A DNA stretch of 38,533 nucleotides from assembly GCA_903919035.1 (NCBI GenBank), contig CAIXGY010000061.1, positions 1 through 38,533 on the forward strand, read 5' to 3'. Below, piece after piece: positions 3,587 to 17,571 of this stretch. The first letter of the stretch is position 1, and each line of letters begins with the position of its first letter. Below the pieces are notes generated by a model. It was not told where the DNA came from. It searched no databases and worked only from the letters and a program-made list of their open reading frames with translations. The translations under genes and the position numbers were made by a program. The stretch comes from an uncultured Planctomycetaceae bacterium (GTDB taxonomy: Bacteria; Planctomycetota; Planctomycetia; Pirellulales; UBA1268).

Positions 3587-3625
3587 GAGCACACCTGCTA
3601 ACGTCCGAGCCCATTGTCCTTTAGC

Positions 3626-3649
3626 ATGTATCGACAGATCGCGATACAT
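3626..3649. promoter_or_regulatory. Perfect palindrome before the rhodanese fusion gene, candidate operator site 2
   Basis: ATGTATCG (3626-3633) and CGATACAT (3642-3649) form a perfect 8-bp inverted repeat with an 8-base spacer, about 1.5 helical turns between arm centres. It lies 43 bases before the next start codon, in the 105-base gap after the arsR-like gene. Its right arm resembles that of site 1. The simplest reading is an operator that lets the repressor control the sulfur genes separately from its own gene. A possible -10 (TACATT, 3645-3650) overlaps it, but no good -35 is seen. Confidence 0.52.
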
Positions 3650-3691
3650 TGATTCTTAAGTACCTTTCCTGACCTTTCGGAGGATGGTTTC

Positions 3692-4651
3692 ATGATTGCC
3701 ACGATTTCCCCGACGATGCTCGCTGATCTCCGCCGCAAGGGAGACAAGGTCACGCTCATCGACGTGCGCACGCCCGCCGAGTTCGGCGAGGTACACGTTG
3801 ATTTCGCCCAAAACATTCCACTCGACCGGCTCGACCTACAGTCCGTGAAGGCGGTGGCCGGCGACGGGCCCGTGTACTTCGTCTGCAAGTCGGGCACCCG
3901 CAGTCAGAAGGCCTGCGAGAAACTGATCGGCGCCGGGCTCAAGGACGTGGTCAGCGTCGAAGGGGGTACGACGGCCTGTGAAGCCGCCGGTGTGCCGGTC
4001 ATCCGCGGCCGCAAGGTGATGTCGCTCGAGCGGCAGGTGCGGATCGCGGCGGGGGCGCTCGTCGCCATCGGGGCGGCGCTGGCCGCCTTCGGCCCCGAGG
4101 CGCCGGTGAATTGGCAGGCGATCGGCGCGGGCCTGGCCGGCTTCGTCGGCTGCGGCCTCGTGTTCGCCGGAGTCACCGACACCTGTGGCATGGCGATGCT
4201 GATTGCGCGGATGCCGTGGAACCAGGCGTCTGGCGGCGGCTGCCGCACGGCCACCACCTGCTCGCGAGCCGTTCTGCTCGGGCTCGTGCTCGGGGCCATC
4301 TCCGGCACCGCGATCGCCGAGCACACGAAGGACTCGCTCGACGTCGTGAAGCAGGCAGTCGCGCAGCAGAAGGCGGTGATCATCGACGTGCGTGAGCCGG
4401 ACGAATGGCAGGAGGGTCACCTCGCCGGTGCCGGCCTGCTTCCGTTGAGCGCGATCGAGCGCGGCGTGCCCCCGCAGGAGCTCGCGAAGATCCTGCCGAA
4501 AGACAGGATCATCTACTGCTACTGCCTCGCCGGCGGCCGCTGCATGGAAGCCGCCGACAGGCTCAAGCCCCTCGGGTACGACGTGCGGGCCTTGAAGCCC
4601 GGCTACCCGCAGCTCGTGAAGGCCGGCTTCCCGGCCGTCGTCGGCAAGTAA
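3692..4651 (+). CDS. Rhodanese - DUF2892 membrane - rhodanese fusion protein
   Basis: This 319-residue protein has three parts. Residues 1-105 are a rhodanese domain with active-site loop CKSGTRS (Cys65). Residues 112-180 are a DUF2892/YgaP-type membrane hairpin (ERQVRIAAGALVAIGAALAA, then GFVGCGLVFAGVTDTCGMAML and MPWNQ). Together these resemble E. coli YgaP, a membrane sulfurtransferase. A third hydrophobic stretch (residues 192-209) reads like a signal peptide, and a second rhodanese domain follows (about 215-319) with loop CLAGGRC (Cys278, plus Cys284). The membrane segments could place the two rhodaneses on opposite faces or the same face; the sequence does not settle this. A strong CGGAGG lies 9 bases before ATG 3692. 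It is the first structural gene after the ArsR-family regulator. Confidence 0.93.
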   Translation: MIATISPTMLADLRRKGDKVTLIDVRTPAEFGEVHVDFAQNIPLDRLDLQSVKAVAGDGPVYFVCKSGTRSQKACEKLIGAGLKDVVSVEGGTTACEAAGVPVIRGRKVMSLERQVRIAAGALVAIGAALAAFGPEAPVNWQAIGAGLAGFVGCGLVFAGVTDTCGMAMLIARMPWNQASGGGCRTATTCSRAVLLGLVLGAISGTAIAEHTKDSLDVVKQAVAQQKAVIIDVREPDEWQEGHLAGAGLLPLSAIERGVPPQELAKILPKDRIIYCYCLAGGRCMEAADRLKPLGYDVRALKPGYPQLVKAGFPAVVGK

Positions 4652-4694
4652 CGAGCCGGTTCGCCACCCCCACCCCACCAGCGGAGACATCGCC

Positions 4695-6098
4695 ATGAAG
4701 ATCCAGCAGTATTACCTGTCGTGCCTGTCGCACGCGTCGTACATGATCACCGACGAGAAGACGAAGACGGCCGCGGTGGTCGATCCCCAGCGTGACATCG
4801 ACCAATACCTCGCCGACGCCAAGGCCGGCGGGTACACGATCAAGCACGTCTTCCTGACGCACTTTCATGCCGACTTCATCGCCGGCCACATCGAGCTGCG
4901 CGACAAGGCCGGGGCGACGATCCACCTTGGCCGACGGGCGGACGCGGAGTTCTCGTGCGTGAAGATGCAGGATGGCGATGTGATCGAGTTCGGCGACGTG
5001 AGGCTCGAGATCATGGAGACGCCGGGGCATACGCCCGAGGGCATCTCGATCCTCGTCTACGACCTCGCGAAGAGCCGCACCGAGCCGCTGGCCGTGCTCA
5101 CCGGAGACACGCTCTTCATCGGCGACGTGGGCCGGCCCGACCTCCTGGCGAGCATCGGCGTGACGGCCGACGAGCTAGCCGACATGCTCTACGAGAGCAT
5201 CACGAACAAGCTCGTGAAGCTGCCCGATGCCACGCTCGTCTATCCGGCTCACGGGGCCGGCAGCATGTGCGGCAAGACCCTGTCGAAGGAGACCGTCTCC
5301 ACGATCGGCGAGCAGAAGAGGTTCAACTACGCCCTCCAGCCGATGAGCCGCGAGGAGTTCAAGAAGATCGTCACGGCCGATCAGCCGGAGGCCCCCGACT
5401 ACTTCGTCCATGACGCGATCCTGAACCGCAAGGAGCGGGCGTCGCTCGGCGCGGCGATGGAAAAGACACTCAAGCCCCTATCGCTTGATGAGGTACTGGC
5501 CCTCGGGAAATCGGGTGCGCAGCTCCTCGACGTGCGCGACGGCATCGACTTCGAAGGGGGACACCTGAAGGGAGCCCTCAACATTGCCTTGAACGGCAAG
5601 TACGCGACGTGGGCTGGGTCGATGCTCGCGCACGACAAGCCGATCGTGGTGATCGCGGAGGAAGGCGGGGAGGAGGAGGCCGTGATGCGGCTTGGCCGCA
5701 TCGGCTTCGACAACGTCGCGGGCTACCTCGCCGGCGGCATGAGTGCCTTGGCGGTCCGCGACGATCTTGTGGAGCGGACGGAGCGGATCACGGCGATGGC
5801 CCTCGGCGAATGGCTCGCCGGGAAGCGGCCTGACGCCGGTGCGGCACCGATCGTCGTGGACGTGCGAAGCGAGGCGGAGCATGCGGGTGGCCACATCGCT
5901 GGCGCCTTGAACATCCCGCTCACGCATCTCGATGAGCGGATCAGTGAGATTCCGGCCGGCCGGCCCGTGGCCGTGCACTGTGAAGGAGGCTATCGCTCCG
6001 CGATCGCCGCGAGCCTGCTGCAGAAGCTCGGCCGCCGTGACGTGCACGACATGGTGGGCGGTTACAAGGCCTGGCTCGCAGCAAAGCTACCCACATGA
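4695..6098 (+). CDS. Persulfide dioxygenase-like metallo-beta-lactamase fused to two rhodanese domains
   Basis: Of 467 residues, about 1-250 form an ETHE1/persulfide-dioxygenase-type metallo-beta-lactamase domain. It has THFHADF (His56, His58, Asp60), PGHTPEG (His112), TGDTLF (Asp138), the GRPDL signature and YPAHG. Such enzymes use one Fe(II) to oxidise glutathione or similar persulfide to sulfite. Residues about 263-355 form a rhodanese-like domain with VIAEEGG where the catalytic Cys loop should be, so it is inactive. Residues about 365-467 form a rhodanese with loop CEGGYRS (Cys429), which is intact. The architecture resembles the dioxygenase-rhodanese fusions known in bacteria. The stop overlaps the exporter gene by ATGA. 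The neighbouring sulfurtransferases could supply persulfide, and the exporter could remove sulfite. Confidence 0.95.
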   Translation: MKIQQYYLSCLSHASYMITDEKTKTAAVVDPQRDIDQYLADAKAGGYTIKHVFLTHFHADFIAGHIELRDKAGATIHLGRRADAEFSCVKMQDGDVIEFGDVRLEIMETPGHTPEGISILVYDLAKSRTEPLAVLTGDTLFIGDVGRPDLLASIGVTADELADMLYESITNKLVKLPDATLVYPAHGAGSMCGKTLSKETVSTIGEQKRFNYALQPMSREEFKKIVTADQPEAPDYFVHDAILNRKERASLGAAMEKTLKPLSLDEVLALGKSGAQLLDVRDGIDFEGGHLKGALNIALNGKYATWAGSMLAHDKPIVVIAEEGGEEEAVMRLGRIGFDNVAGYLAGGMSALAVRDDLVERTERITAMALGEWLAGKRPDAGAAPIVVDVRSEAEHAGGHIAGALNIPLTHLDERISEIPAGRPVAVHCEGGYRSAIAASLLQKLGRRDVHDMVGGYKAWLAAKLPT

Positions 6099-6973
6099 TC
6101 GCCCCCGTACTGGCTGCCATCGACGCCGTCGCGGCCACGAATCCCCCCACGTGGGCAGCGGCGGCATCGGTGGCGGCTGGGAGTCTCGTCGGTCTTTCGC
6201 TGGGGCTGACCGGCGGCGGCGGCGCGATCTTCGCCGTGCCGCTGCTCGTTTACTGGATCGGCGTCGATCCGCGGACGGCCGTGAGCATCTCGCTCGTCAC
6301 CGTGGCGGCGACGGCGCTCGTCGGCGCAGTCGAGCGGTGGTGGTATGGCCAGGTCGAAGTCCGCACGGGGCTGCTCTTCGCGGCGGCGGGAATGCTGACC
6401 GCTCCGGCCGGCGGCTGGCTCGGCGGGCAGGTGCCGCCGCAGACACTCATGGCCACGTTTGCGGGGCTCATGCTGCTGATCGCCGCCAGGATGTGGCGCA
6501 AGGCATCGGATGACACCGAGCGGGCGGCCGCCGGCGTATTTGCGGCGGGAGTTGGCCCGACCTGTAGTCGCGATGCGGAGGGCCGGCTTCGGATGACCAC
6601 GCGCTGCTTCGTGCTCCTCACGCTCGTGGGGCTCGTGGTCGGGCTGCTTTCCGGCCTGTTCGGCGTCGGGGGCGGATTCCTCATCGTGCCGGCGCTCGTC
6701 GCCTTCGCCACGATGGACGTCTTTCGTGCCATCGGGACGTCGCTCTTCGTGATGACACTTGTGGGGGCCGCGGCGGTGGCCGCCCAAGTGGCTGCGGGCC
6801 GCAGCATTCCGCTCGACATCGCCGGCAGCTTCGTGGGTGGCGGCGTGCCCGCCCTGTTCGTTGGCTCGTGGATCGGCCGCCAGATCCGCGGCCCAACGCT
6901 AGCCCGCGTCTTTGCCGTCGCGATCGTCCTCGTCGCTGCCTTCATCATCTACAAGAGCATGGCGCGTATTTGA
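6095..6973 (+). CDS. TauE/SafE family sulfite/organosulfonate exporter
   Basis: The 292-residue integral membrane protein shows two homologous halves, as in TauE/SafE proteins. The first is GSLVGLSLGLTGGGGAIFAVPLLVY with GVDPRTAVSISL. The second is GLVVGLLSGLFGVGGGFLIVPALV with FRAIGTSLFVM. Repeated GxxGxGGG loops are the family hallmark, and about eight membrane helices can be drawn. Members export sulfite, sulfoacetate and related anions. The gene is coupled to the persulfide dioxygenase by a four-base ATGA overlap, which supports sulfite, the dioxygenase product, as cargo. Substrate specificity is inferred from context. Confidence 0.94.
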   Translation: MIAPVLAAIDAVAATNPPTWAAAASVAAGSLVGLSLGLTGGGGAIFAVPLLVYWIGVDPRTAVSISLVTVAATALVGAVERWWYGQVEVRTGLLFAAAGMLTAPAGGWLGGQVPPQTLMATFAGLMLLIAARMWRKASDDTERAAAGVFAAGVGPTCSRDAEGRLRMTTRCFVLLTLVGLVVGLLSGLFGVGGGFLIVPALVAFATMDVFRAIGTSLFVMTLVGAAAVAAQVAAGRSIPLDIAGSFVGGGVPALFVGSWIGRQIRGPTLARVFAVAIVLVAAFIIYKSMARI

Positions 6974-7009
6974 GTTCGGCCCTTCCCTGTAACGCAGAGG
7001 AAAGCATCG

Positions 7010-7582
7010 ATGATCCAATCGATCCACTCCGTCCGACGCACCGGCCTCGCCCTGGTCGTGGCGGTGGCATCGGTAGCGTCGTGCTTCGGCGCCGAGTCTG
7101 TTGTCGCTCCCGCCCTCCAGTTTCCGAAGATCGAAACATACGGTGGGGTCGTGGATCTTCCGTCGGCTGACGAACGGCCGCGGGCTGGTGGCAGAGTGGT
7201 CTTCGACACCACGGCCGCCGCACCGGCGGGTAAACCGAATCGGGGCCTCGAAAGTGCGGCCCGGCTGGTGAACATCTACGAACTGGAGGAGATGACGCCG
7301 GACCGGCCGAAGATCGCGGTGATCCTGCACTTCAACGCCACGGCGGCAGCGCTCAACGACATGGCCCATGCCAAGACGCCCGCCGGCGGTGTGAACCCAA
7401 ATCGCGAACTGGTTGAAACGCTGCTGGCCAACGGGGTGGAGGTGTGGGTGTGCGGTCAGTCAGTGATTCGCAGCGGCCACGCCTTGGCCGACGTGCTCCC
7501 CGGCATCCGTGTCGCCCATTCGGCGATGATCTTCAACACGAACCGTCAGACCGACGGTTGGGCCACGCTCGCCGTGCATTGA
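7010..7582 (+). CDS. Secreted DsrE/DsrF-like protein
   Basis: The 190-residue product starts with a signal peptide (RRTGLALVVAVASVASCFGAES). The mature part ends in a DsrE-like alpha/beta domain: RLVNIYELEEM, KIAVILHFNATAAALND, NRELVETLLANGVEVWVCGQS, then LPGIRVAHSAMIFNTNRQTDGWATL. Cys148 in VWVCGQS sits at the position of the sulfur-carrying cysteine of DsrE/TusD-type proteins. It follows the exporter gene by 36 bases. A periplasmic sulfur carrier or persulfide acceptor is plausible. Many secreted DsrE-like proteins occur beside rhodaneses, but their partners are mostly unproven. Confidence 0.9.
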   Translation: MIQSIHSVRRTGLALVVAVASVASCFGAESVVAPALQFPKIETYGGVVDLPSADERPRAGGRVVFDTTAAAPAGKPNRGLESAARLVNIYELEEMTPDRPKIAVILHFNATAAALNDMAHAKTPAGGVNPNRELVETLLANGVEVWVCGQSVIRSGHALADVLPGIRVAHSAMIFNTNRQTDGWATLAVH

Positions 7583-7598
7583 ACGGACGAACACCGTG

Positions 7599-8396
7599 AT
7601 GAAACCGGGTTTGCTTCGCGGCATAGTGCTGGCGGCGTTGATTCATGCACCGCTCGCCTCCGCGCAGCAGTTCACCGAACTCGACACGGATCGAGACGCC
7701 TTCACGCCGGCGACCCGACCGGTTCCGGCCGGCGGTGTACTCATGGAGGCGTCGTATTCATTCATCGACAACCGCGGTACGCCGGCAACAAACAGCTTTC
7801 CAGAACTACTCATTCGCCTGGGAGCCACGGAGCGATTCGAGTGGCGCGTTGGCGTGAATTACGAATCTGGATCCGGAGGGAGTGTTGTGACAGCTGTTGA
7901 GGGAGGTGAGGGCGTCGCTGGAGACGCCCTCACTTCTGAGACAAGCGTCCTCTATGGCTTCAAGGCGCTCCTCACGGAGCAGGATGGACTGGTGCCGCGC
8001 AGCAGTGCGCTCGTCGAGGCATTTACGCCCCTCTCAGGCGAGGTCTGGGGCACGGAGCCCGCGATCACATACGTATTCGGCTGGGAGCTTGTCCACGAAT
8101 GGCGGTTCGACGCGGCCATGCGCTATGTGCTCGCCGACAGCACTGAAGGGCTCTTCAACAAGTGGCTGCCCTCCGCCGTGCTTCGCATCCCGGTCACCGA
8201 ACGGTGGGAGCTTCACGCCGAATGGTTTGGGAGCTGGAGCGACGGGCTCATGGACGAAAAAGTGCGGCCTTTCGTGGGCCCCGGCACGCACTTCATGATC
8301 GCCCCCAACCTCGAGATCGGCTGCCGCATGGGCTGGGGGCTCACGCAGGACGCTGCGTCATATTTCGTTGACTCCGGGCTGGGGTGGCGGTTCTGA
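7599..8396 (+). CDS. Outer-membrane beta-barrel protein (phenol-degradation MetA/transporter-like)
   Basis: The product has 265 residues from ATG 7599; a GTG one codon earlier is an equal choice. A signal peptide (LRGIVLAALIHAPLASA) is followed by FTELDTDRDAFTPATRPVPAGGVLMEASYSFIDN. The rest is made of alternating strands such as LLIRLGATERFEWRVGVNY, AFTPLSGEVWGTEPAITYVFGWEL and WELHAEWFGSWS. It ends in a strand with terminal Phe (YFVDSGLGWRF), the usual outer-membrane assembly signal. This pattern fits the MetA-like 'transporter' barrel family. Its place 16 bases after the DsrE-like gene suggests a channel for sulfur species across the outer membrane. That role is inferred. Confidence 0.85.
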   Translation: MKPGLLRGIVLAALIHAPLASAQQFTELDTDRDAFTPATRPVPAGGVLMEASYSFIDNRGTPATNSFPELLIRLGATERFEWRVGVNYESGSGGSVVTAVEGGEGVAGDALTSETSVLYGFKALLTEQDGLVPRSSALVEAFTPLSGEVWGTEPAITYVFGWELVHEWRFDAAMRYVLADSTEGLFNKWLPSAVLRIPVTERWELHAEWFGSWSDGLMDEKVRPFVGPGTHFMIAPNLEIGCRMGWGLTQDAASYFVDSGLGWRF

Positions 8397-10446: not shown

Positions 10447-10677
10447 ATGACACTGCAGAGTGACGAATTCCACCGACTCGAGGGGTTGATCTTTCGCCCC
10501 GTCTCGTCGCGGCCGGACTGGCTCAAGGCCTGGCGGAACGAGGCACAATACCTGCTCTCGCTCGCCCGACGCGCCGCCGACAACGATGACGAGGAGACCC
10601 TTCAGGAACTCGAAGATCAGGCCCGCGACATGGCGGATGTCGTCGAGGCCAGACTGCGATTCGAAGGGCTCTTGTAG
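10447..10677 (+). CDS. Small hypothetical protein, helical
   Basis: This 76-residue product (MTLQSDEFHRLEGLIFRPVS...) is acidic and predicted to be almost wholly alpha-helical. Its long segment DWLKAWRNEAQYLLSLARRAADNDDEETLQELEDQARDMADVVEARLRFEGL could form a helical hairpin or coiled coil. I do not recognise the family. The ORF track extends upstream to 10249, but that part runs through hairpin-rich non-coding sequence. ATG 10447 marks the point where the composition becomes protein-like. It is convergent with the giant nuclease gene, whose stop is only 39 bases away. Confidence 0.6.
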   Translation: MTLQSDEFHRLEGLIFRPVSSRPDWLKAWRNEAQYLLSLARRAADNDDEETLQELEDQARDMADVVEARLRFEGLL

Positions 10678-10716: not shown

Positions 10717-13700
10717 TCATCCGTCCTGCTGGCGGGAGACCAGGAGGCTCCAGCAGTCGGCATAGAGCTCCACCTGGGGCCGATAATGCTCCGCGAGCAG
10801 CCGCTCGCTGGCGGCCGTCACCGCGTCGGTCTTCCAATCGACCACCGTCCAGCGGCCTGCGGTGTCGCTGAAAACAAGGTCGATCACGCCGCGGATCACC
10901 GTCGGCAGCGGCCCGCCGTCGCCAGCAAACTTCCGCACCCCCTCCGGCAGGTCCGCGCCCCGCACCTGCACGGAAAACGGCACCTCGGCCAGCCGCGCCG
11001 GGCTCGCCTGAGCCCGCCTCCAGACGTCACTGGCAAGCACGCCGCGCACGGTGGCGACGGCCCGGTCGAGGTGCACGAGCGACACGTCCTCGCTCGAAAG
11101 CACGGTGACCGCCGCAGCCGGGATATCGAGGCCACGATCGCGAAACGCGAGCTCCAGAAGCCGATGGATGGCACGACCCCACGGCTCCCCCAGGCCGTCA
11201 CCTGTGAAGCGAATGCCCTCGGCGGGTTCCGTGAGCAGTTCGCGTGGTGCGATCCGCGCGAACGTCGGCGGCACGCAGGCCGCCAGGCTGACCTGGATAG
11301 CAGCCCAGTCGCCGGGAGCAGGCTTTGCGGCCTGGGCAGGCACAGCCATGCCGGCGGCCGGCAGCCCGGGGATGTCGGGGACCCCGTCGAGATGACCGGC
11401 GAACCGCCCCCAGGCGCCGTGGGCGACGAACGCCTCGGGCTTCGTCTTCGTCGCGGGCTCGTGCTTCTCGAACAGCGACACCACGAGCCCGCACCCGGCT
11501 CGCGTGGCCGCGACATAGTCGAGCCGCAACTGCTCGGCCTCCTCGAAGGCCCGCTCGCGAAGGCGGAGATCATCCCAGCCGAGCGGGGCGGCGACGATCC
11601 TCGTGGCCCAGCCGACCGACTGCGTCACGGCGAGCCAGCCGGTGGTGCGATCACCGGCGCGATCGACGTGCAGGAACGGACCGGCGGTCGCGTCGTCACT
11701 CGGCGACCGCCGCTGGTAGTCGACGAGAAACACGACCGGAGCCTCGAGGCCCTTCGCTTTGTGGAGATTCATCACCCGCACGCGATCCGCGGAGGGCACA
11801 TCGATCGTCAGGGGGTCGAACTCCTCCCGGGTCGCCTTGCCGACGAGTTCGTCGAGCAGATCGAGGCAGTCATGGAGCGACACCACGTCGAGTCGCTCGG
11901 CCCGCAATCGCTCGAGAAACGCGAGGAGCAGACCCGCCACCGCCCGGCCACCAGGTCCTCCTGCACCGTCGGCTGCAGCGGCGAGCAGCAGGAGCCCAGC
12001 GTCGTCGATGACGCGATCCACGGCCGCGACCACCGGCAGATGCCGCTGCCATGTCCGCCAGCGGGCAATCGCGTCGCGGGCGCCGGCAAACCGAGCCGCA
12101 AGCCCCGCATCCAGCCCCGCGGGCACGTCGATCGCTCCGCCAAAGCGGCCGCCGGCCTCTCTGTAGGCGAAGAGCTCGGCATCGCTGAAGCCGAACGTGC
12201 TGCCGCGGAGGAGCGCGAGCATCGCGATCGGATCGTCGGGATCCGCCACGGCCGCGAGGCACGTGCGGACTGCGCGGAGGGACTCGGCCTGATCCTCGCC
12301 CAGCGTGCCGGTGACATCCACGGGCAAACCCGCGGCGTGCAGGGCGGCGGCGTAGATGCCCAGATGCTTCCGCTCGCGGGCCACGAGCAAAAAATCACCG
12401 GGACGGCAGGCGGTGGTGGCCCCGCGGCCTGCCTCCTCGACCGTCCGCGGCACAGCCAAGCCCGCCTCGATCGCCCCCCTGATGAAGGCCGCGACCTCGC
12501 GGGCCTCGCGCTCTACCCAGGCAGGGCCGGCGGTGCCCGCCCGCACGAAGCGCAGCGTACGGATGCCGGTGAGCCAGCCCGGCTCGCCGCCGCCAGCGGC
12601 CGCCTCACGCCGGCCGGAGGTGCTCGGCATGAAGGCGGGCGATTCGAGCGTCGCGGCCGGCGGAAACTCGGCCGCAAACACGTCGTTGGCCCAGGCGACC
12701 AAGTCCCCACGGCTCCGAAAGTTCGTGGTCAGCGCGAGCACGTCGCCGCACGCGGCGATGATGTCGCGGACGGCCGCGTAGGTGACGATGTCGGCCCGCC
12801 GGAACCGGTACAGCGACTGCTTCGGGTCGCCCACCACGAACAGCGAGCCGGCCACCGGCACACACTTCCGCCAATCGCGCTCGCCGACGTCACCTGCCGT
12901 CAGCAACAGGAGCATCTCGGCCTGCACCGGATCCGTGTCTTGAAACTCGTCCACAAGGATGTGGGTGTAGCGACGACGAAACGCCCTTCGCACCTCCGGG
13001 TGTCCAGCCAACAGCCGGGCGGCCTTGCCGAGCAGATCCTGAAACGAAAGCCCGCCCCGTTCCGCCCGCAAACGGTCGTATTCCACACCCGCCGCGCGGA
13101 GGGCCGCGATCGCCACCGGATAACGATGGGCCCTCCACTGCGCCAGCGCCGGGGCCGCCACCGTCTCCCGTAGTCGCTCCCACTCAGCCTGCCACCCGAG
13201 CGCGAGCGCTTTCTTCGCCTCACGCGTGGCAGCGGCCGTGGGTCCGCTGCCCGGCCAGTTGGTCTGCGTGACTTTCGGCGTCCGCTCCAGTTCCTGGAGC
13301 ACCTCCATGACCGCGATGACCGACGTGGTGTCACAGCGGCGCACGAGCCTGGCGAACTGCTCGAGCGCGGTCATCAGGTCGTCGCTGCCACGCGCCGCAG
13401 GCTCGGTGAACTCCGCCGCCTCGATGCGGGCTGCGAAGGACTCGATGGCCGCCACCACCGTCGCGACGTCCGGCGGCGCGGCGGCGGGCGTCGGCCAGTG
13501 CTCCACGTCACCGTAGGTGGCGAAACGCTCGATGAACAGCGGCGACAGGTCGCCGAGTCGCAGGCCGACGGCGGCGAGATCGGCCAGCAGTTGCGGATGG
13601 TCCGTGGGCGCCGCCGTGACGAAGGCGCGCCAGGCCTGTCGCCGCAGGAGCCGGTCAGCCGAATCGTCGAGTTCGCGGAAGGCGGGATCGACGCCCGCCT

Positions 13701-16700
13701 CCAGCGGTCGCTCGCGCAGCAGGCGGCCGGCGAATGAATGGATCGTGCCGATCACCATCGCATCGATCCGGGCAAGGGCGGCCGTGAATCGGGCCTGCTC
13801 GACCGGATCGGCAGCCGCAACAGCTGCCCGCTGCAACTTCTCGCGAAACCGACGACGCAACTCCGCCGCGGCTTTTTTCGTGAACGTCACCGCCACGATC
13901 CCTTCGGGCCGAGCCGTGCCGGTGCGCACCAACGCCAGCATCCGGTCGACGATGCACGTCGTCTTTCCGGTGCCGGCGGCGGCCTCGACGAGGAGCGTGG
14001 TCGTGAGATCGCCCCGGATGCGCTGCCGGACTGGCTCATCGGGCGGCGGGACCGGCGGCGCGGGATGCGGTGTGAGCGCGAGCGGTGACGGATGGGGTCG
14101 GCGGATCTCGGGCACGGCCCGTCCGCGCAACTCGCCGCGGAGCGCACCAAACAGGTCACGGAGTGCCGCGGAGGCGGCCACCATCCGGGCTGCGTCTCGA
14201 GTCACTTCTTCGGCATCGCCGCAGACCGTCGCGAAGTCGCAAAACGCGCAGTCACTTCGCTCGCTCGTCGGCAGAAAGGCGCCCTGCCCGGCGATTTCGG
14301 CAAGTTGCCGCACGAGCGTCGTGCAGGTGTAGAGTTGATCGGCCGTCCACTCGAGCCGGCGGCCTTTGCCGGCCCGCGTCGGAAAGAAATACCCGAACCG
14401 CTCCACCTGCCCGCTCCCCGCCGCACAGCCAGGATCGGCGAGCCGCGTCCGCAGCATCACCAGATAGAGCCCGTGCTGGAGCGTGCGCCCGCCCTGAAAC
14501 GGATCGGCGGCGGCGGTGTCGGGAAATCCATAGCCGCTGCCGCTCTTGTAGTCCCACAGCGTGTAGCCGCGATCGTCGCCCGATTCACGGACGTCGATCC
14601 GGTCGATCCGGCCACGCAGCCGGATCGTCTCGCCCGGCGCGAGCGACACCGCCACCGGCTCACGGACGTCGAACGGCGTGCCGCAGCCGGCTGGCTCCAC
14701 ACCGATCGCCGCCTCGATAGCCAGGGGTCTCCGCCCCGACTCCCGGCACGACCGGGCCTCGTCATGGAGGAACGTCCGCATCGCCGTGCGAAGTTCGTCG
14801 CGGCGGGCCTCGAAGGCAAGCGACGTCAGCGGCGGCTGGCGGCGTCGACTGGCCTCGAGTTCCTCGTCGAGGATCGCGTGCACGCCGGCGAGGTCACGGT
14901 CGAAGTCGGGCAACTCACCACGCTCGATGAGTCCGCGCATGAACCGCTCGAGCACCGTGTGCAGCAGGCTGCCGGCGTCGAGCGCGGTCAGCCAGCGATC
15001 GGTATCCTCGTCGAACGTGTCGAGCGGCTCGATGCCGAGACCGTATCGGAAGAAGAACCGCCGCGGGCAGGCCCCGAGCGACTCCAGACTGTTGGGCGAC
15101 GCCGCACGGCCCGCGTCTGCGCGCGGATCGAGCCGCGGGCCGGCCGCGGGCACATGCCCGTCGTAGGGCGTAAAGTCGGTGGAGGCCCGCGCCGCCGCGG
15201 CCACCTGGCCGTGCGCGAGGTAGTCGCGATGGGCGACGAGCATCGCCTGCACCTCGGCGGCGGTGGCCGTCGATCCCAGGACAGCGAGCCGCCATTGCGA
15301 CTCGTCGAGGGCGAGTGCCGGGTCGGTCGGCACGAACGACTCCGGCGGGGCCAGCGTCTGCAGCAGGTCGTCCACCGTCTCCAGCGGATCGCCGATCGCC
15401 TGGGCATGGAGCGCGAGCAGAGCCGGTGACGGAAACACCTCCGCGTCGTCGGCCATGTCGCGGCACGTGAATCCGAGCCACACCTCGCCGCGGAGCCTCG
15501 CCAACAGCCTTCGCCAGAGGTCCAGATTGCGGGCGGCGGCGTCGCGGGCCACGGTCAGCCGGGCCTCCGGCCGCACGGCGTTGATGTCCATGCGATCGCC
15601 TTCGGTGAGCACCGGATCGGTCGCAGAGCCGCCGGGGAAGCGGTTTTCGTCGAGCCCGAGCACGAAGGTGTAGGGGCGGCCGGAGTGGCCGCCCGCGGCG
15701 AACCCGCAGACATGGATGGAGCCGGGCCGCGGGCCCGAGCCCAGCACGACGAGTTCCGCCGGAAGTTGCTCGAGCCACTCGAGCATGTCACGGGCGGTGG
15801 CGCGGTCGCCCTGCCACGTCAGCATCGCATCGATCTCATCCAGGATGAGCCGCCGGGCGTTGCCGTCGAACTCACTGTCGGCGGCGCAGAGATCGTGGAT
15901 GAATCGCCGGGCCCCCTCGAGCGCCGACCTCGCGGTGGGCTCGGCGCCGCCCTCGCAGTCGCCGATGGCGCGGGCCAGCGCCACGAGGGCGTCGAGGCGG
16001 CCGGTGGTCCGCTCCTTGCGGGCCGCGAGCGCCTCGGGGGTGGCTGACTCGACGCCATCTTCTTCATCGTCGGCTCCGCGGGCGAATGCGGCGACAGGCT
16101 GCTCATGGGCCCGCGCCGCCGCGGCCGCCAGCATCGAGACGGTCCGGTCGAGTCCCCGGCCGATCTTCACACCCCGCAACTGCCGCACGAGTGCGCCGGC
16201 CCGCGGCGCGTCGGGCAGGAGACGGGCCAGGTCGATCACGCCGTCACGGAGCAGCCGCTCGAATCCGGCCTGCGGATGGCCGTCGCGCCGCCAGGCAAGC
16301 CAGCCTGCGAGCGCCCGGCCGGGCTTCGAGTCGGCCAGCGGCAGCCCCTCGGCAAAGGTGACGGGCAGATGATCGTCGCGGCCCCCACCCGGCGCCGGCG
16401 GCCGAGGCAGGGCAGCGACAATCTCGCGGACGAGCGCGGGATACGTGGCCGCGTCGGTGTGGATGATCTCGATCTCATCGAACCGCAGGCCACGGGCCAG
16501 TGCCGTCCGCAGCACGTGGCGGACTTCATTGGCTTCGCCGGCGGCGCGGAAGATGGAAATATGCTTTATGTCGATCGGAGCCGGAGCCGCGGGGAGCGGC
16601 TGGTCGGTCGAGAGCGTGCGGACGGTCACGCCTGGAGCGGCGGCGAGCGCGTCCAGCAGCCGACGTTCGAGCGGTGGCGGATCGACGTCATCGGGGACGA

Positions 16701-17397
16701 GCACGACCTCGATCGCGGGTGGCACGCGGCCCGTGGCCACATGGTCGATCGCGAGGGCGAACTCGCCTGACTGGTCGATGAGATTGACCGCCTCGAGTGA
16801 CGCCGTGTAGCGGTCGAGCAGGAGGCCGATGTCGCGGGCCCGCGCCGTGTGCCCCAACGCGGCGACGAGATCGCCCGACGTGAGGCCCGACGCCCGCAGC
16901 GCCTCGAGGCTCACCAGCACCCGCTCGGCGAGCCGGCGCAGCGGACCAATCACGTCACGGAACGACTCGAGATCGCCGCGACTCTCCTCGAGCATCCGCT
17001 CCACGGCCACGAGCCTGGCCCGCGGCGGGGCCAGTGCGGTGCCCGACGCGGCCAGCGTGTCGGCAACGATGTCGAAGGCGAGGGCGGGCAGCGTGGTGAC
17101 GTGCAGATCGCCGACCGGATGACCGAGGCGGACGATGGTCTCGACCCACTCCTGCCCCACGCGGCGCGACGGGGCGACGAGCCAGGCGGAGCCGCCGCCG
17201 CGAGCGACGATCTCGTCGAGCGCGGCGATGAGCGACCGGGAGAGCGTGTTGGCCTGCGGCGGCGCCCGGCCCGGCAAGCCGCCGGCCACCATCCCCAGCC
17301 GGCTCGACGCGGGCACGGGCACCTCGAGCGCATGCCAGGCCGGGGATTGCCACGCGGTCGCCGCAGGCCGGTCGGAGGTCTTCCGTGACGAACTCAT
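10717..17397 (-). CDS. Single-chain AddB-AddA helicase-nuclease fusion
   Basis: One open frame of 2226 codons carries both subunits of an AddAB-type double-strand-break resection enzyme. Residues about 1-760 resemble AddB's helicase-like region, with a degenerate Walker A (LVAPSRRVGQEW). Residues about 770-1060 form the AddB Fe-S nuclease: GACPRRFFF (first Cys), DAGSLLHTVLERF, TLWDYKSGSG (Asp949) and CAFCDFATVC. A proline-rich linker follows (about 1100-1125). The AddA half has Walker A AAGTGKTT (Lys1145), ILVDEFQDTDP (Asp1483), VVGDPKQSLYRFRRADI, VMNLHKAKGLEAPVVFL, YVAATRA, and a C-terminal nuclease with GVIDLVF and VVDWKTD (Asp2187). AddA and AddB are normally separate genes. There is no internal stop or frameshift. 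The amidohydrolase gene lies 174 bases upstream on the same strand. Confidence 0.93.
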   Translation of the reverse strand: MSSSRKTSDRPAATAWQSPAWHALEVPVPASSRLGMVAGGLPGRAPPQANTLSRSLIAALDEIVARGGGSAWLVAPSRRVGQEWVETIVRLGHPVGDLHVTTLPALAFDIVADTLAASGTALAPPRARLVAVERMLEESRGDLESFRDVIGPLRRLAERVLVSLEALRASGLTSGDLVAALGHTARARDIGLLLDRYTASLEAVNLIDQSGEFALAIDHVATGRVPPAIEVVLVPDDVDPPPLERRLLDALAAAPGVTVRTLSTDQPLPAAPAPIDIKHISIFRAAGEANEVRHVLRTALARGLRFDEIEIIHTDAATYPALVREIVAALPRPPAPGGGRDDHLPVTFAEGLPLADSKPGRALAGWLAWRRDGHPQAGFERLLRDGVIDLARLLPDAPRAGALVRQLRGVKIGRGLDRTVSMLAAAAARAHEQPVAAFARGADDEEDGVESATPEALAARKERTTGRLDALVALARAIGDCEGGAEPTARSALEGARRFIHDLCAADSEFDGNARRLILDEIDAMLTWQGDRATARDMLEWLEQLPAELVVLGSGPRPGSIHVCGFAAGGHSGRPYTFVLGLDENRFPGGSATDPVLTEGDRMDINAVRPEARLTVARDAAARNLDLWRRLLARLRGEVWLGFTCRDMADDAEVFPSPALLALHAQAIGDPLETVDDLLQTLAPPESFVPTDPALALDESQWRLAVLGSTATAAEVQAMLVAHRDYLAHGQVAAAARASTDFTPYDGHVPAAGPRLDPRADAGRAASPNSLESLGACPRRFFFRYGLGIEPLDTFDEDTDRWLTALDAGSLLHTVLERFMRGLIERGELPDFDRDLAGVHAILDEELEASRRRQPPLTSLAFEARRDELRTAMRTFLHDEARSCRESGRRPLAIEAAIGVEPAGCGTPFDVREPVAVSLAPGETIRLRGRIDRIDVRESGDDRGYTLWDYKSGSGYGFPDTAAADPFQGGRTLQHGLYLVMLRTRLADPGCAAGSGQVERFGYFFPTRAGKGRRLEWTADQLYTCTTLVRQLAEIAGQGAFLPTSERSDCAFCDFATVCGDAEEVTRDAARMVAASAALRDLFGALRGELRGRAVPEIRRPHPSPLALTPHPAPPVPPPDEPVRQRIRGDLTTTLLVEAAAGTGKTTCIVDRMLALVRTGTARPEGIVAVTFTKKAAAELRRRFREKLQRAAVAAADPVEQARFTAALARIDAMVIGTIHSFAGRLLRERPLEAGVDPAFRELDDSADRLLRRQAWRAFVTAAPTDHPQLLADLAAVGLRLGDLSPLFIERFATYGDVEHWPTPAAAPPDVATVVAAIESFAARIEAAEFTEPAARGSDDLMTALEQFARLVRRCDTTSVIAVMEVLQELERTPKVTQTNWPGSGPTAAATREAKKALALGWQAEWERLRETVAAPALAQWRAHRYPVAIAALRAAGVEYDRLRAERGGLSFQDLLGKAARLLAGHPEVRRAFRRRYTHILVDEFQDTDPVQAEMLLLLTAGDVGERDWRKCVPVAGSLFVVGDPKQSLYRFRRADIVTYAAVRDIIAACGDVLALTTNFRSRGDLVAWANDVFAAEFPPAATLESPAFMPSTSGRREAAAGGGEPGWLTGIRTLRFVRAGTAGPAWVEREAREVAAFIRGAIEAGLAVPRTVEEAGRGATTACRPGDFLLVARERKHLGIYAAALHAAGLPVDVTGTLGEDQAESLRAVRTCLAAVADPDDPIAMLALLRGSTFGFSDAELFAYREAGGRFGGAIDVPAGLDAGLAARFAGARDAIARWRTWQRHLPVVAAVDRVIDDAGLLLLAAAADGAGGPGGRAVAGLLLAFLERLRAERLDVVSLHDCLDLLDELVGKATREEFDPLTIDVPSADRVRVMNLHKAKGLEAPVVFLVDYQRRSPSDDATAGPFLHVDRAGDRTTGWLAVTQSVGWATRIVAAPLGWDDLRLRERAFEEAEQLRLDYVAATRAGCGLVVSLFEKHEPATKTKPEAFVAHGAWGRFAGHLDGVPDIPGLPAAGMAVPAQAAKPAPGDWAAIQVSLAACVPPTFARIAPRELLTEPAEGIRFTGDGLGEPWGRAIHRLLELAFRDRGLDIPAAAVTVLSSEDVSLVHLDRAVATVRGVLASDVWRRAQASPARLAEVPFSVQVRGADLPEGVRKFAGDGGPLPTVIRGVIDLVFSDTAGRWTVVDWKTDAVTAASERLLAEHYRPQVELYADCWSLLVSRQQDG

Positions 17398-17571
17398 GGG
17401 CCGCCCATTGTGTTCAGGCGTTCAGTGACTGTCCAGTGGATCGTGACGCGCTCGCCAGCCTGTCGGCTTTCGCGCCGACGGCGGACGCCGCCCTCCGCCG
17501 GCGGTTGCCCGACCGGCGCCACCGGGCACAGGCTTCCGGTCTGCACATCGACCCCGCGCTGAGGCGTGGCG

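Follow-up and report, generated by a model that had tools for sequence, protein, structure and literature searches.

A natural single-chain AddB-AddA fusion in one planctomycete family, very probably an AddAB-type helicase-nuclease that takes the place of RecBCD

The AddAB (RexAB) enzyme of B. subtilis (PDB 3u44/3u4q) consists of two polypeptides, in the order AddB then AddA, and contains one SF1A motor and two PD-(D/E)XK nucleases. Its AddB subunit has Fe-S cysteines, a helicase-like domain, a Walker A sequence (GRSGSGKT), and a second ATP site. According to the current model, AddA is the motor and the 3′-strand nuclease, and AddB is the 5′-strand nuclease and the Chi scanner (PMC4824097). 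RecBCD, in which RecC is distantly related to AddB, performs the same task with three subunits, two motors (RecB and RecD), and one nuclease. AdnAB of actinobacteria is a motor-nuclease of two subunits, each of which has a nuclease, and both AdnA and AdnB are UvrD-like proteins with motor domains. The phylogeny of RecBCD and AddAB was reportedly surveyed in a J Bacteriol paper of 2009. To our knowledge, AddAB and its relatives are known only as multi-subunit complexes, and no description of an AddB-AddA fusion was found in the part of the literature that was covered. Here, we describe a planctomycete locus that very likely encodes a natural end-to-end fusion of AddB and AddA, an AddAB-type helicase-nuclease replacing RecBCD in its hosts.

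The window, by which we mean the whole stretch of 38,533 nucleotides analysed, belongs to a draft assembly of 338 contigs. The fused addB-addA gene occupies 10717–17397 on the minus strand and runs from an ATG at 17397 to a stop at 10717–10719, over 2226 codons without interruption. The initial annotation had given these coordinates exactly, and its proposal of one 2226-residue AddB-AddA protein is borne out by the single frame in the window and by the same in-frame junction in eight separately assembled genomes. A chance frame is ruled out by the length, the matching domains, and the junction common to those eight genomes. Pfam searches of the protein identify a PD-(D/E)XK nuclease (residues 766–1059), a UvrD helicase (1131–1543), and a UvrD C-terminal domain (1870–1977), and a six-frame search adds a C-terminal nuclease at 10741–11184. 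Among the NCBIfam models, TIGR02784 (addA) matches residues 1124–1977 with an E value of 3e-63 and TIGR02773 (AddB) matches residues 768–954 with an E value of 8e-10; both scores are far under the equivalog cut-offs, and thus both halves have diverged. All motifs quoted earlier were located, i.e. GACPRRFFF from residue 775, CAFCDFATVC at 1050–1059, VVDWKTD at 2185–2191, and the Pro-rich linker. Just 5′ of the ATG, a weak sigma-70-like sequence (17407–17435, minus strand) agrees with the consensus at 9 of 12 positions; it is a consensus match only, with one observed against 0.2 expected in the region.

The AddB half (residues 1–1061; 14215–17397, minus strand) is made of an inactivated helicase-like domain followed by a nuclease. 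In single-sequence searches the AddB signal is confined to the nuclease. Homology of the N-terminal half to AddB was established by profile comparison: aligned with 15 relatives, it matches canonical planctomycete AddB over nearly the full length (hhalign, 984 columns, probability 100, E 5e-71), and it matches B. subtilis AddB (PDB 3u44 chain B) with an E value of 3e-7, compared with 2.5e-65 for the canonical planctomycete AddB group. A degenerate Walker A had been proposed for this half; there is none at all, since G/AxxxxGK[T/S] finds no match in it or in 14 aligned relatives, whereas GPAxSGKT is present in seven of nine canonical planctomycete AddBs. Nor does the UvrD Pfam domain match the N-terminal half. 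The absence of helicase motifs here sets the protein apart from AdnAB, and the absence of Walker A sets it apart from B. subtilis AddB.

The AddB-type PD-(D/E)XK nuclease (residues 766–1059; 14221–15102, minus strand; PF12705, E 2.4e-34) has its predicted catalytic residues around H813, D932, D949, and K951, which are kept in all eight fused rows of the alignment. The sequence contains the four-cysteine Fe-S motif of AddB nucleases. Three putative cluster cysteines, C1050, C1053, and C1059, lie in CAFCDFATVC (14221–14250, minus strand), and the putative fourth, C777 (15067–15069, minus strand), lies in GACPRRF; all are invariant in 15 AddB rows and the eight fused rows. As for the ionic latch of B. 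subtilis AddB, R602 aligns with the latch arginine R629. Its partner E129 is matched by E165 only with a one-position shift of the alignment, and no aligned row outside the window's subclade has E165. AlphaFold gave no usable model of the AddB half (pLDDT 46).

The AddA half (residues 1123–2226) carries a complete SF1 helicase motif set and a second nuclease. Its assignment to AddA, also made in the initial annotation, agrees with the TIGR02784 match and with a match to PDB 3u44 chain A. The SF1A motor (residues 1131–1977; 11467–14007, minus strand; PF00580, E 2.9e-51; PF13361) is intact from Walker A to motif VI. Walker A reads AAAGTGKT (residues 1139–1146; 13960–13983, minus strand), and Walker B, or motif II, reads DEFQ (residues 1483–1486; 12940–12951, minus strand). 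The C-terminal nuclease (residues 2072–2219; 10741–11184, minus strand; PF12705, E 9.2e-11) has the residues H2078, D2173, D2187, K2189, and Q2208xxxY2212. Both nuclease signatures, Walker A GTGKTT, DEFQDTD, GDPKQS, and YVAxTR are found in all eight fused proteins wherever the contig covers them. The motifs agree with the earlier view of one motor and two nucleases in one polypeptide, and, as far as the sequence can be read, every clear feature is that of AddAB, save the single chain.

The two halves are joined by a Pro-rich linker of 61 residues (1062–1122; 14032–14214, minus strand), which is present in all eight fused proteins and consists of the AddB C-terminal tail and the AddA N-terminal leader. 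When compared with split genes, the distance of about 80 residues from the last AddB cysteine to the AddA Walker A roughly equals that tail plus that leader. Therefore, no extra domain was gained.

Phyla beyond Planctomycetota were covered solely by a peptide-seeded scan of 84,980 species, which returned two fused homologues, each a single ORF. One is L019 (genome G464; 2226 aa, 73% in the best segment) and the other is L020 (G013, a Pirellulales bacterium; 2247 aa, 67% in the best segment). The record of L019 bears the name Planctomicrobium piriforme, of the NCBI order Planctomycetales. This name is probably wrong, as G464, which seems to contain the same contig, is assigned to the family that includes the window and a Pirellulales MAG. 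Within that family the gene occurs in 9 of 72 genomes, and all eight that span the junction are fused (the window, G464, G013, G460, G463, G475, G433, and G439). They represent five planctomycete genera, or six with the ninth carrier, G469, in which the gene begins at the contig end and does not reach the junction. Relatives with two genes and a stop in the linker had been named beforehand as evidence against a true fusion; the same-family relatives proved to be fused with the linker kept, and split genes were found only in other families.

A wider survey sampled the phylum (392 genomes), the order (397), and the class (398); these sets overlap and amount to about 1,000 distinct Planctomycetota genomes. 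Long frames were read at the DNA level and other matches were judged by frame length only, and no further fusion was seen. In these samples, the planctomycete survey suggested at the outset thus finds the fusion in one family only, every closely examined pair outside it being split. Apparent frames of 1875–2623 aa in G031, G577, G622, G524, G482, G184, G083, G920, and G798 resolve into separate genes in the DNA; in G031, G577, and G622 stop codons part the two. The split genes are usually adjacent and overlapping, in the order addB then addA. In G494, G577, G524, G230, and G080 the two genes have a common reading frame and are separated by just one stop, and therefore a fusion requires little change. 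In G033, G106, and G168 they are on different contigs, in G033 beside unrelated genes. The closest split planctomycete homologues (G033, G494, G744, G050, G358, G100, and G171) are about 30–44% identical, and their AddB is also without Walker A; they differ from the fusion in being two genes, adjacent or on different contigs. Plasmids have separate genes at best (Salinibacter pSR116), and phages have helicase-core matches only, among the matches listed.

RecC (PF04257) has no match in the window's genome, in which RecA is present. Across the family, RecC is found in 34 of 72 genomes: one of the nine fusion carriers (G433) versus 33 of the 63 non-carriers. This association has a Fisher P of 0.03 in the whole family and of 0.0004 in the carrier genera only, and shuffling labels within genera gives a P of 0.001. 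The family is represented by draft MAGs that differ in completeness. About 30 of the 72 genomes, including entire genera such as g287 and g289, have neither the fusion nor RecC; in the carrier genera there are eight such genomes, five of them g1 genomes less than 90% complete. Within the carrier genera, therefore, the genomes mostly possess just one of the two systems, as would follow if both do the same job. From this near-complementary occurrence, a single-chain AddAB-type enzyme, with an AddA half that resembles RecB, seems to substitute for RecBCD in these hosts.

Three other explanations have to be weighed. The join might be an assembly or base error in a MAG that really has two genes, as the 338-contig draft state of the genome and the two genes with a stop between them in other families of the order might suggest. 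However, eight separately assembled genomes of five genera have the in-frame junction and a related linker, and no split addB/addA pair occurs in any same-family relative, which leaves such an error hardly conceivable. It is improbable, though less so, that one gene gives two working proteins, with AddA made from an internal start or released by protease cleavage of the linker to form the usual heterodimer. The linker is indeed the most variable region (dN up to 0.44), Pro-rich, and probably exposed. Nevertheless, its length is nearly constant inside each subclade, and no ATG, GTG, or TTG lies near it at a position common to the three species compared. The candidate starts differ, i.e. GTG at 1095 in the window, GTG at 1091 and 1112 in L019, and only GTG at 1119 in L020.

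It has also to be asked whether the protein could be a defence or accessory nuclease rather than a housekeeping resection enzyme. Its occurrence in the family is patchy, and the models for GajB and further UvrD-like defence proteins give matches to the helicase core. The GajB matches, however, are limited to that generic core, no defence gene was seen nearby, the neighbours being genes for an amidohydrolase and a methyltransferase, and fusion genomes are mostly without RecC, as would be the case for a substitute. We consider a defence role very unlikely.

For the fusion replacing RecBCD, which remains the preferred reading, a history can be proposed from the trees. All fused rows form one clade in both the AddA tree (support 100/100) and the AddB tree (support 100/99), with the same two subclades in each; the simplest reading of both trees would be one fusion event. 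It would have occurred in an addB-addA operon with both genes in one frame, probably when the stop codon of addB was lost. In both halves dN/dS is about 0.14–0.27, with dS several times dN in every pair compared, and purifying selection acts on both. The window's gene (genus g1) clusters with that of G460 (genus g290) and not with that of G013, which belongs to g1 as well. This pattern suggests either deep sorting or a transfer from one genus to another. A gene downstream of the fusion is common to G013, G460, and G464; therefore the locus was partly inherited as a block. A bolder version, which we regard as rather doubtful, is that a one-gene resection module spreads horizontally and displaces RecBCD, and that linkage alters its working state, e.g. 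into a permanent pair or a swapped two-motor dimer with altered Chi control.

An AddAB-type activity, i.e. ATP-dependent unwinding, degradation, and Chi response, is predicted for the fused chain, and its mechanism can be modelled on that of AddAB (PMC4824097). The chain would fold on itself into the AddAB architecture by intramolecular assembly, and the fusion would force a 1:1 ratio of the two halves. The AddA motor would travel 3′-5′ and unwind double-strand ends, with the 3′ strand cut by the nuclease of AddA and the 5′ strand by that of AddB. The helicase-like AddB domain would scan for a Chi-like sequence, and RecA would receive the 3′ tail. If true, a natural single chain with one motor and two nucleases would serve as a ready tool for structural and single-molecule work because subunit ratio and dissociation cease to matter, and it would test the role of subunit separation in Chi control. 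Its exchange with RecBCD within genera would amount to a natural test of replacing the main enzyme for the resection of double-strand breaks.

Several features of the surrounding genes may be mentioned. In G464, G013, and G460 a DUF2130 gene (PF09903; L019 ~14695–15846, L020 ~14738–15889, and L151 ~3590–4738) lies directly 3′ of the fusion and overlaps or abuts its stop, in L020 by an ATGA-type overlap; its product has an N-terminal CPHC zinc-ribbon-like start. It is possibly a translationally coupled partner of the fusion. PF09903 has no match in the window's genome, and the control genomes gave no match either. In the window, a gene for a small acidic protein (MTLQSDEFHRLEGLIF...; ~10447–10674, plus strand) runs convergently towards the end of the fusion; this protein is also encoded downstream in G460 and G464, with the DUF2130 gene intervening. 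Farther away, at 3692–8396 on the plus strand, is a cluster of rhodanese, metallo-beta-lactamase-rhodanese, TauE exporter, and DsrE genes, which is likely a sulfur or sulfide handling set.
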